Position numbers and translations under genes: made by a program | In this document: positions 9,535 to 50,994 of the stretch, piece after piece | Layout: every line of letters begins with the position of its first letter | How positions within the stretch are numbered: position 1 is the first letter of the stretch | The notes under the pieces: model-generated | Databases searched by the model: none | What the model was told of the DNA's origin: nothing | The model's input: only the letters and a program-made list of their open reading frames with translations | NCBI RefSeq assembly: GCF_016863315.1 | Contig: NZ_BOOQ01000002.1 | Span: 372,001-436,000 of the forward strand | Length of the DNA stretch: 64,000 nt | DNA from: Planotetraspora silvatica | GTDB taxonomy: Bacteria; Actinomycetota; Actinomycetes; Streptosporangiales; Streptosporangiaceae | Direction of reading: 5' to 3'

Positions 9535-9595
9535 GCGCGCACAAGGTCCCCGGCCGGGGCACGATGGAGGTGCCGTGGCCAGAGGAGAGAAGAGA

Positions 9596-9892
9596 TTGAA
9601 CGACGAGCCGGAAAGCCGCCTCGAGGTGAGCATCACACCGGAGGTCGAGGCAGGGCAGTACGCCGACTTCACCTCGGTCTGGCACACCCAAGATGGATTC
9701 GTCCTGGACTTCGCCGTGATCACACGACCGCCGGCGCTCGCCGACGATCCCCTTTCAGGGGACAGCTATGTCAGCGTGCCGACCCGGATCGTCAGCCGGG
9801 TGAGGCTCCCTCCAGCGCAGGTCTTCGAGCTGATGAAGGCCCTGGAACAGCAGCTCACCGCCTACGAAAAAGAAACCGGCCAAAAAGTCTGA
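9596..9892 (+). CDS. DUF3467 domain protein
   Basis: 98 residues. The sequence LEVSITPEVEAGQYADFTSVWHT, a central VLDFAVI strand and the ending RVRLPPAQVFELMKALEQQL match DUF3467, a small cytosolic domain of unknown function. The frame is open from a GTG at 9575, but the strong AGGAGAG at 9582-9588 sits seven bases before the TTG at 9596, so TTG is my preferred start. The gene ends just before the first mirror comb. Confidence 0.8.
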   Translation: MNDEPESRLEVSITPEVEAGQYADFTSVWHTQDGFVLDFAVITRPPALADDPLSGDSYVSVPTRIVSRVRLPPAQVFELMKALEQQLTAYEKETGQKV

Positions 9893-9908
9893 CCCCCATC
9901 CCCTTGTG

Positions 9909-10369
9909 CGTGATCATGCACAGGTTCGGAGATGTGCCGTGCGACCTGGCACAACATCGAGCGTGATCATGCACAGGTTCGATGATGTGCCGTATGACCA
10001 GCACCAATGCCCGGCGTGATCATGCACGGATTCGGTGAATGCCTGTCCGATCAGGCCTTTCACCATCGGTGATCATGCGCACTTTCCGTCAAACGCTCCA
10101 CGACCTGTGGGTATGCGCCTAGCGATCATGCATGTCCGCCACAACTGGATGATCACGCGACGGGTCGCACCTGCTCAGGCCGTACGCCCCCGAACTTGCG
10201 CATGATCACGCAGTGCGTTTGAGCACGTCAGGGGATGTACGAGCGAACCTGTGCATGATCACCCAGCGCATCGTCGCCGGTCACGGGCCATTTCACCGAA
10301 CCTGTGCATGATCACGCCGGGGGTCGGCGCTGGTCACACGGCACATCTCCGAACCCGTGCATGATCACG
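9909..10369. repeat. Mirror-symmetric comb of ten 53-bp units (copy 1)
   Basis: Five forward copies of a unit beginning CGTGATCATGCACAGGTTCG start at 9909, 9962, 10015, 10068 and 10121, exactly 53 bp apart. Five reverse copies end at 10157, 10210, 10263, 10316 and 10369, again exactly 53 bp apart. Every forward/reverse pair sums to 20278, so the array is one large palindrome centred on 10139. The inner units are degenerate. A weaker box near YGACCTGC recurs about 33-41 bases into each unit. It fills the gap between convergent genes. A second copy lies at 29195-29657. Confidence 0.93.
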
Positions 10370-10384
10370 CGGAAGAGAGGGGGG

Positions 10385-11458
10385 TCAGGCTTGGAGTTCT
10401 TGGGTTAGGGCGGTGACGAAGGCGTCGACGTCGGCTTCTGTGGTGTCGAAGGCGCACATCCAGCGGACCTCGACCTCGCCGCCGCCGATCCGGTCGTTCC
10501 AGTTGTAGAACCGGAACCGCTTGCGCAGCCGGTCGGCCACGTCCACCGGCAGGATCGCGAAGACCGCGTTGGCCTCCACCTCGCGCGCCACCCTGACTCC
10601 GGGGATGTCCCGTACGGCTGCCGCCAGCCGCCTGGCCATGCCGTTGGCCTGACGGGCGTTGCGCAGCCACAGGTCTCCGCCGAGCAGTGCCTCGAACTGC
10701 ACGGACACGAACCGCATCTTCGAGGCGAGTTGCATGCCGGTCTTGCGCAGGTACGGCAGGCCCTTCGTGGCAGCGGGGTTGAGGACCACGACGACCTCGC
10801 CCAGCATGAGCCCGATCTTGGTGCCGCCGAAGGACAGCACGTCGACCCCCGCGTCCGTGGTCAGCGCGCGGAGGGGCACGTCGAGGGCCGCCGCCGCGTT
10901 GGTGATCCGGGAGCCGTCCAGGTGGACGAACAGGCCAAGCTCGTGAGCATGATCGCAGACGGCCTTGATCTCGGCCGGCGTGTACAGCGTGCCGAGTTCC
11001 GTGGCGTTGGAGATCGAGACCGCCCGGGGCTGGGCACGGTGCACGTCCCCGAAGCCCCATGCCTGCTGGTCGATCAGGTCGGGCGTGAGCTTGCCGTCCG
11101 GGGTGGCCACCGGGAGCAGTTTCAGCCCTCCGGTGATCTCCGGGGCGCCGCCCTCGTCGGTGTTGATGTGCGCGGTGTCGGGGCAGACCACCGCCTCCCA
11201 CGGGGCGCACATCGAGCGCAACGAGAGCACGTTCGCGGCGGTGCCGTTGAACACCGGCAGGGCCTCGGCCTGGTCGCCGAAGTGCCGCCGGAAGATGCCC
11301 TGCAGGGCCCCGGTGTAGGCGTCGTCTCCGTAGCTGACCTGGTGCCCGCCGTTCGCCAGGGCGATGGCCTCGAGCACCTCCGGGTGCACTCCGGCGTAGT
11401 TGTCGCTGGCGAAGGTCTTGATCTCCGGCTCGTGCCGCCGCACGGCATCCGTTGTCAC
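10385..11458 (-). CDS. ltaE: Low-specificity L-threonine aldolase / beta-eliminating lyase
   Basis: 357 residues, a PLP fold-type I enzyme cleaving L-threonine or allo-threonine to glycine and acetaldehyde. Family motifs are FASDNYAGVHPEVLEAI near the N-terminus, FNGTAANVLSLRSM, HINTDEGGAPEITGG, HLDGSRITNAAAAL (the PLP Asp) and VLSFGGTKIG, whose Lys should bind PLP. The start is GTG 11458, preceded by GGAG at 11467-11470. An SDR gene ends 35 bp upstream on the same strand and a DUF6421 gene lies beyond it, so the three probably form one operon. Confidence 0.93.
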   Translation of the reverse strand: MTTDAVRRHEPEIKTFASDNYAGVHPEVLEAIALANGGHQVSYGDDAYTGALQGIFRRHFGDQAEALPVFNGTAANVLSLRSMCAPWEAVVCPDTAHINTDEGGAPEITGGLKLLPVATPDGKLTPDLIDQQAWGFGDVHRAQPRAVSISNATELGTLYTPAEIKAVCDHAHELGLFVHLDGSRITNAAAALDVPLRALTTDAGVDVLSFGGTKIGLMLGEVVVVLNPAATKGLPYLRKTGMQLASKMRFVSVQFEALLGGDLWLRNARQANGMARRLAAAVRDIPGVRVAREVEANAVFAILPVDVADRLRKRFRFYNWNDRIGGGEVEVRWMCAFDTTEADVDAFVTALTQELQA

Positions 11459-29194: not shown

Positions 29195-29657
29195 CGTGAT
29201 CATGCACAGGTTCGGGTGCGGCCCGTCTGACGTGCCCAACCCCTTCGCGTGATCATGCACAGGTTCGGAGAAGCGGGCCCCGACCTGCGCGATCCCCCAT
29301 CGTGATCATGCACAGATTCGGCGAAACGGGCTCCGACCTGCACCGATTCCCGCCGTGATCATGCGCAAGTTCGTGGATCACTCACCCGACCTGGGCGTAC
29401 AACAGTCGTGATCATGCACGAGGAGCACATCGGGCGTCCACGTCTCACACGTTCATTCCCCGCCAGGTACTCCACAACGACCTGGCTGCATGATCACGAA
29501 TATCGAATGCGCAGGTCAGCCGGGCCGTCCCCGAACTTGTGCATGATCACGACACAGGTTGGACCAGGCCAGGGCCCACTTCTCCGAACCTGTGCATGAT
29601 CACGCGCGGGGGTTGGGCACGTCAGACGGGCCGCATGCGAACCTGTGCATGATCACG
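29195..29657. repeat. Mirror-symmetric comb of 53-bp units (copy 2)
   Basis: Five forward units starting with CGTGATCATGC lie at 29195, 29248, 29301, 29354 and 29407, exactly 53 bp apart. Four reverse units end at 29498, 29551, 29604 and 29657, again 53 bp apart. Forward/reverse sums are 58852, so it is one palindrome centred on 29426, with the tenth unit lost. In the outermost pair the spacers also match (TGCGGCCCGTCTGACGTGCC is mirrored at the far end). It lies between divergent genes, unlike copy 1. Confidence 0.93.
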
Positions 29658-50768: not shown

Positions 50769-50838
50769 CGCCCGCCGCGGCGAAGCCGGCTCGGACCACC
50801 CGGTCCTGAGCGGCTCCTCGATCACCCGGCGGATTCCC

Positions 50839-50911
50839 GGCGGGTGAGGGCGCTGGTGTGCCCGGCGGTTTCATAAGCCGCTCCGGGCGGGTTCGATTCC
50901 CGCACCCGCCA
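50839..50911 (+). tRNA. tRNA-Met-like (CAU), atypical, no encoded CCA
   Basis: All stems pair: acceptor GGCGGGT / ACCCGCC, D-stem GGGC/GCCC, anticodon stem GCGGT/GCCGC with loop TTCATAA, T-arm GCGGG-TTCGATT-CCCGC, discriminator A, followed by CTCC. Position 8 is G instead of the near-universal U and position 14 is G instead of A, so the core tertiary pair is altered. It differs from the canonical tRNA-Met at 33944. It could be functional, specialised or a pseudo-tRNA. Confidence 0.65.
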
Positions 50912-50921
50912 CTCCTTTCAC

Positions 50922-50994
50922 GCCTCTGTGGCGCAGTGGAAAGCGCGCCTGCTTGCGGAGCAGGAGGTCGCTGGTTCGATTCCAGCCAGAGGCA
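50922..50994 (+). tRNA. tRNA-Arg (GCG anticodon), no encoded CCA
   Basis: Full cloverleaf: GCCTCTG / CAGAGGC, D-stem GCGC/GCGC with an A20-like loop, anticodon stem CCTGC/GCAGG with loop TTGCGGA (anticodon GCG), T-arm GCTGG-TTCGATT-CCAGC, discriminator A and then CCG. Bacteria normally read CGC with an ACG (inosine) anticodon, so GCG is unusual. It sits 10 bases after the CAU tRNA and is followed by a terminator. Confidence 0.75.

Follow-up and report, generated by a model that had tools for sequence, protein, structure and literature searches.

The window, by which we mean the whole stretch of 64,000 nucleotides analysed from the actinomycete Planotetraspora silvatica, contains two intergenic arrays of one short repeat, in which several units follow each other in one direction at a step of 53 bp and are then met by units in the opposite direction (Table 1). 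We refer to these arrays as combs. The first is located between the genes of a DUF3467 protein and a protein of the Beta_elim_lyase family, and the neighbours of the second code for an uncharacterised membrane protein and a class-III aminotransferase. Elsewhere in the window, Rfam placed a selenocysteine tRNA, barely over the cut-off (47.6 vs. 47 bits), beside an ordinary tRNA (50838-50911 and 50922-50994).

Table 1. Features of the two combs and flanking genes, in positions of the window
Feature	Position	Strand	Remarks
Left arm of the first comb, five units, 53-bp step	9909..10140	+	Cores at 9909, 9962, 10015, 10068 and 10121
Right arm of the first comb, five units	10138..10369	-	Cores ending at 10369, 10316, 10263, 10210 and 10157
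Second box CGACCTGG, first left unit	9942..9949	+	Family profile; same position in most units
Second box TGACCAGC, outermost right unit	10329..10336	-	Read on the minus strand; family profile
Centre of the first comb	10121..10157	none	Both reduced inner units, face to face, with a 3-bp overlap
DUF3467 protein gene, flanking	9575..9892	+	Stop codon ends 16 nt ahead of the first core
Beta_elim_lyase family gene, flanking	10385..11458	-	Convergent; stop 15 nt beyond the outermost core of the right arm
Second comb, same family	29195..29657	none	Between two divergent genes; left units at 29195, 29248, 29301, 29354 and 29407, right cores from 29532, 29585 and 29638

On re-reading, the ten unit positions and the 53-bp steps given for the first comb in the original prediction were all correct. 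The eight outer cores carry 0–5 mismatches to the 20-mer, and in the innermost unit of each arm the decamer alone remains, with one mismatch each (GCGATCATGC at 10121 on the plus strand and GGATGATCAC ending at 10157 on the minus strand). Cores with three mismatches or fewer number 14 in the window, seven in each comb, whereas 100 shuffled versions averaged 0.01. The first comb had also been described as one exact palindrome whose mirrored pairs sum to 20278. The arithmetic holds, but it provides no independent evidence because any two opposed combs with a step of 53 share a mirror axis. The palindrome itself was overstated, since complementarity between the arms is only 77% in register (141 nt) and reaches 87% over 79 nt when they are shifted by one unit, and 88 of the 148 arrays that we classified (see below) are one-sided with cores equally conserved. 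The idea that a giant exact palindrome is what matters is weakened by the poor identity between arms and by the equal conservation of cores in one-sided arrays. The arms of the second comb are 88 and 67% alike in spacers one and two, respectively.

A module with a near-constant step

The unit is made of the decamer GTGATCATGC, five loose bases, TTCG and then 33 nt that hold YGACCTGC at a fixed position. The profile obtained from 327 cores reads CGTGATCATGC-R-C-R-N-N-TTCG, with YGACCTGC at positions 33–40 and a weaker AAY near position 45. This second box, already suspected from the window, was found in 76 of the 92 spacers of contig C2 and in one of 92 after shuffling. All 96 last inner units retain the decamer, TTCG survives in 24 of them and the box in only four, and just 3 of 96 first cores have a box ahead of them. 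As the last unit has a decamer without box and the first core has no box ahead of it, the array can be written as decamer-(insert-decamer)n, i.e., n modules require n+1 decamers. There are from one to six units per arm, and the arrays are intergenic, either one-sided or mirrored with the heads outward. This orientation was found in every mirrored array classified, the exceptions being mixed or one-sided arrays. In five of 17 pairs the innermost opposed decamers are 24–25 bp apart and form a short, hairpin-like centre. The mean number of core mismatches rises from the head inward (1.07, 1.21, 1.86, and 2.28, leaving out the last unit). Spacers within the family have a pairwise identity of 0.431 vs. 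0.279 when shuffled. Over the 16 mirrored arrays of the genome, spacers in register are 0.461 identical vs. 0.423 between unrelated arrays, so that copying from arm to arm is weak and local.

Two other readings of the unit were discarded. For a hairpin formed by the core and box of the same unit, the mutual-information table showed no covariation. A mini-ORF, with TGATCATG closing one frame and opening the next 48 nt apart, found no support in the distribution of stops, which, compared over several genera, are not specially avoided in that frame (32 of 515 modules in the ATG frame, 56 of 515 in another frame; 16 of 28 in g55). A coding match for the comb sequence was searched for and none was found.

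The step between units is nearly fixed. Counting orthologous loci separately, the 564 decamer steps shorter than 120 bp in 76 Planotetraspora stretches were 53 bp in 515 cases, 52 in 18, 51 in two, 54 in two and 106 in nine, with other values in 18. The same value predominates in G229 (53 in 20/25; 52–53 in 24/25), in g55 (53 in 28/36 and 54 in seven; 52–54 in all 36) and, with more scatter, in G091 (53 in 15/30 and 51, 52, or 54 in nine, i.e., 51–54 in 24/30). In G116 the same module is found at a step of 41 bp in 83 of the 100 steps listed (40, 42, or 43 in 13, and 53 in one), and its box appears reversed, GCAGGTC, when read by eye. Therefore, we find 53 ± 1 bp in four genera and 41–43 bp in a fifth, and the 53-bp step is held within one base though the spacers are only 43% alike. 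The loss of this spacing in close relatives would have spoken against the importance of the phase, and it is retained. Both lengths are near whole helical turns, 53 bp near five and 41–42 bp about four (at 10.5 bp per turn, 53 gives 5.05 and 41 gives 3.90). It is the step alone, in two lengths only, that supports helical phasing, because the harmonic with a period of 53/5 (10.6 bp) inside units accounts for just 3–8% of the power in the four groups. In genus g38 (G057, C107:6380-7238) tandem cores step near 35 bp, a length that does not correspond to whole turns.

Distribution and genomic context

A 19-mer allowing two mismatches gave 634 matches in the 8.66-Mb genome of P. silvatica (G000) and 604, 191, 549, and 617 in the sister genomes G001–G004, probably P. 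thailandica, P. phitsanulokensis, P. kaengkrachanensis and P. mira in that order, compared with 0–2 in 36 other genomes. The core is therefore not private to the window or to its genome, as had been asked at the outset, being common to the five Planotetraspora and present in other genera. Contig C2 (628 kb), read whole, contains 23 clusters, of which 21 are arrays; the two single-core clusters are number 12, where the sequence looks coding in each of the four species, and number 19, that overlaps a called gene.

A search of 345 genomes of the order for two decamers 51–55 bp apart was positive in 10. A looser pattern was positive in 40 of 341 genomes of the family, 14 of them above background or with support from the sequence model and the other 26 with one or two matches. 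Its counts were 152–748 in the five Planotetraspora, 542 in G091, 221 in G230, 209 in G106, 63 in G097, 58 in G101, 46 in G229, 40 in G103, five in G107 and two in G116, while among 15 g55 species nine had no match and one had a single match, the bearers of arrays in this genus being G097, G101, G103, G106, and G107. The sequence model, built on 71 modules, added genus g38 (G056 and G057), where the cores are single inverted pairs in both orientations. Over the class it was positive in 15 of 394 genomes, and outside the family only G432 had several matches (five, best E-value 5.2e-8), with two stretches of heads-out arrays at uneven steps.

Palindromes with a CGTGATCWTG head were detected in 25 of the 394 genomes of the class, with up to 67 copies, and the reversed pattern used as control in none of the 394; the head is fixed by the search pattern and sharing it is no finding in itself. 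In 49 palindromes chosen from the listing, arm complementarity within a copy was higher than across copies in five of nine sets, equal in two and lower in two. Perfect palindromes of this kind, each lineage-specific, appear in several actinobacterial families (G362, G377, G437, G460, G579, G674, and others). We infer that there may be a superfamily of GTGATC-headed palindromes, possibly of common descent, of which the combs would be an elaborated form. A different repeat in another genus of the family, GTGATCTTG...CAAGATCATTTCAGGAC (G120, C5:82497 and C5:249788), could represent one more family of hairpins with a GTGATC head.

As to location, 114 of the 122 cores of C2 touch no called gene, against a coding share of 87.5%. 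Arrays were over-represented between convergent genes: the 148 arrays, counted with orthologues of four species taken separately and over contigs tiled plus 64 of 76 named 8-kb loci chosen for holding a core (12 were left out, their contigs being already tiled), lie in convergent gaps in 48 cases, tandem in 81 and divergent in 19, where the 1105 background gaps of at least 100 bp are 176, 594, and 335, respectively. One-sided arrays have the head at the 3′ end of a gene in 57 of 88 cases, and in 13 of these 57 the TGA of the core is the stop codon. Within tandem gaps alone, 30 heads are at the 3′ end vs. 21, and this placement partly reflects promoter avoidance.

Conservation and turnover

We compared 72 reciprocal pairs of units between G000 and G004, picked by spacer similarity (reciprocal best, at least 23/33). 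The strict core differed at 23 of 1152 sites (2.0%), the box at 38 of 576 (6.6%), the spacer at 236 of 1800 (13.1%) and the loose bases of the core at 54 of 288 (18.8%). With G003 the strict core differed by 6.0% and the spacer by 22.7% (21 pairs), and with G002 by 3.4 and 15.6% (11 pairs). The selection claimed in the original prediction is borne out by these values, which homogenisation between copies could mimic. Leaving out the last units, the strict core accumulated 8 differences over 528 sites in mirrored arrays and 5 over 320 in one-sided ones, so selection does not depend on the pairing of arms. The cores are also kept in place. When arrays of C2 were anchored by their flanks, all 15 whose flanks were found in G004 had cores there, and about 12 of 15 in G002.

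Unit numbers, on the other hand, often differ between orthologues by one or two whole units, and some arrays are present or absent between species. No locus seems essential, since unit numbers vary freely, G002 has far fewer copies and most g55 species have no arrays. At C2:346756-346962 (region L120) the array is inverted in G003 and G004 relative to G000, and the G000 copy has a 15-bp fold-back, so that mirrored combs may have originated by snap-back copying.

The core itself has dialects. Both comb loci of the window hold arrays in G001, where GTGATCATGC-AGAAGTTCG takes the place of ACAGGTTCG in most of the outer and middle units. G091 has ..TTCC, g67 has GTGATCTTGC..CTCGCA, and g55 has GTGATCTTGTAGTTTGTCGCA in the outermost units, by eye a strict dialect confined to these and not found in the inner ones. 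Of 24 arrays in other genera, five had long matching flanks on both sides; two of them (L262 and L270) share the locus with Planotetraspora and the other three (L265, L273, and L275) do not.

What the combs may be

We favour, with moderate confidence, the reading of the combs as a non-coding, REP-like extragenic repeat that has been elaborated into phased, putative protein-binding platforms at gene ends. The functional module would be the decamer GTGATCATGC, TTCG, the YGACCTGC box and the next decamer, would work at the DNA level and would be bound by a putative sequence-specific protein. With neighbours 53 bp (five turns) or, in one genus, 41–42 bp (about four turns) apart, the proteins would sit on the same face and could touch, in a short phased row, possibly co-operative, that starts beside the gene end. 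The placement of the arrays at gene ends may point to a boundary or roadblock as the output, perhaps to control transcription read-through or to anchor the nucleoid. Whole modules would be gained or lost through slippage or recombination, and fold-back copying would give rise to mirrored combs. A protein in phase on DNA is favoured because of the constant core and box, the near-fixed step and the existence of a second natural step close to whole turns, and also because there is conservation without a pairing partner and no substitution signature of an RNA. The many losses of arrays and the strong folding of mirrored combs as RNA speak against it. Among the protein-binding scaffold, cruciform and structured RNA that had been proposed from the window, it is the scaffold that leads, with selection, the wider family and phasing on its side, while the structured RNA lacks support from substitutions even though a mirrored comb folds strongly.

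An RNA-level element, in which transcribed combs would fold as long hairpins that end transcription or shield the 3′ ends of mRNAs, is possible although unlikely. The whole mirrored comb folds at -279.9 vs. -192.1 for shuffled sequences (sd 6.7, z -13.1), a single arm does so moderately (z -3.05), the excess between convergent genes and the stop codons supplied by the core would fit, and the simple relatives in other genomes form perfect hairpins, the longest of 24 bp. However, one-sided arrays, unable to fold arm to arm, keep their cores equally, arrays also occur between divergent genes, and core and box show no pairing signal. G.U is not above A.C among the differences between arms (85 to 79 in tandem, 72 to 97 in convergent and 34 to 43 in divergent gaps). 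The Rfam scan of the window gave two tRNAs and tRNA-Sec only, none at the combs, and a permissive scan of 9700-10600 reached at best 18 bits vs. a cut-off of 62. Much less probable still is a neutral VNTR or satellite-like repeat whose copies are kept alike via slippage and gene conversion. Orthologues that differ by whole units, dialects that shift genome-wide at the same loci and the fold-back and inversion traces at C2:346756 are what it would produce, but conversion would homogenise core and spacer alike, and here it is the flanking 33 bp and four bases within the core that drift, around an otherwise constant 20-bp core, with the step kept at 53 ± 1 over such divergent spacers.

Somewhat more credible, but in our opinion still doubtful, is mobility of the REPIN/MITE type, with a non-autonomous element whose ends, the outermost inverted cores, would be recognised by a mobilising enzyme, and with the one-sided arrays as remnants. 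The hundreds of dispersed copies, the occurrence of some arrays in one species and not in another, the outermost core being the best kept, the confinement of the strict g55 dialect to the outermost unit and the simple inverted pairs of g38 and other families all agree with it. The mirrored arrays have conserved inverted ends, as a MITE would, and the one-sided arrays are a majority. Dead copies should lose core and spacer equally, yet the former is several times better kept, and the 15 arrays traced to G004 have all retained cores. The Y1 transposase (PF01797) had no matches in G000 (the control search was positive in 5 of 14 genomes), and the genes inside widely spaced arms include, by eye, no recognisable transposase (five loci, three of them orthologous). 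Plasmids and phages gave no match, a single isolated core occurs in each of two viral contigs, and the few empty sites, read by eye, show no clear target duplication. The protein-binding platform could also be extended to a class-wide, GTGATC-headed superfamily with a co-evolving reader that would rewrite the dialect, and with hundreds of phased protein rows in Streptosporangiaceae acting as gene-end boundaries or in chromosome order; we regard this as a tentative possibility.

Bacterial extragenic repeats are usually explained as leftovers of mobile elements. Here, core, second box and helical step persist in evolution for longer than the spacers do and at unchanged gene borders, and the core dialect has changed in concert throughout whole genomes. 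The closest likeness is to REP, BIME and REPIN sequences, with hundreds of extragenic copies, inverted pairs, clusters near gene ends and a lineage-specific sequence behind a constant head. CGTC REPs have been reported without a dedicated transposase (PMC3733652; PMC2817692; PMC3116915, in the portions available), and the phyla given there for GTAG and CGTC repeats do not include actinobacteria, a word that appears 0 times in the available text of PMC3733652. The combs differ in their tandem modules in the same direction at a constant 53 or 41 bp, the second box between cores and the frequency of one-sided arrays. Their head is GTGATC instead of GTAG or CGTC, the comb unit is not itself palindromic as the REP unit is, palindromes arising only from two opposed units, and no Y1 (RAYT) transposase such as that of GTAG-type REPs was found in G000. 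The combs are REP-like, yet fail two defining REP features: a palindromic unit headed by GTAG or CGTC, and the Y1 enzyme.

MIRUs are also tandem intergenic units, variable in number between relatives, and overlap with stop codons. Their sequence is probably unrelated to that of the combs, and MIRUs are not known to be mirrored or to have a constant core with drifting spacers. The combs have no mini-ORF signal. A 53-bp MIRU type is described beside a 77-bp one in the accessible part of PMC4213456.

Short repeats, spacers of about 33 nt and a constant step recall CRISPR arrays, and 12 of 32 arms of C2 have at least three consecutive cores within two mismatches. Unlike in CRISPR, comb spacers are not unique but diverged copies with a fixed box, and the arrays occupy hundreds of loci with at most six units per arm and mirrored arms. 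DFAST reports 64, 18, 15, 4, and 3 "CRISPRs" in five Planotetraspora species, the 64 in P. thailandica (PMC11431748, Table 1). These counts may in part be combs, and perhaps largely so for P. thailandica, a warning that the number of CRISPRs called in genomes of this kind may be too high. The word "repeat" is absent from PMC11431748, and among the literature matches listed there was no description of such combs.

The platform reading itself has parallels. Sal-box terminators of rDNA and transposon ends with repeated sites are oriented tandem sites at a set spacing, i.e., phased arrays for multi-site protein binding. The combs are like them in having oriented, spaced sites near gene ends and differ in being located at hundreds of unrelated loci and in that their binder is putative. 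If a reader protein exists, it would add a novel class of multi-site DNA-binding system, found in antibiotic-producing relatives, and the natural 53- and 41-bp versions, together with g55 species with and without arrays, offer a ready test of phasing and a route to that reader.
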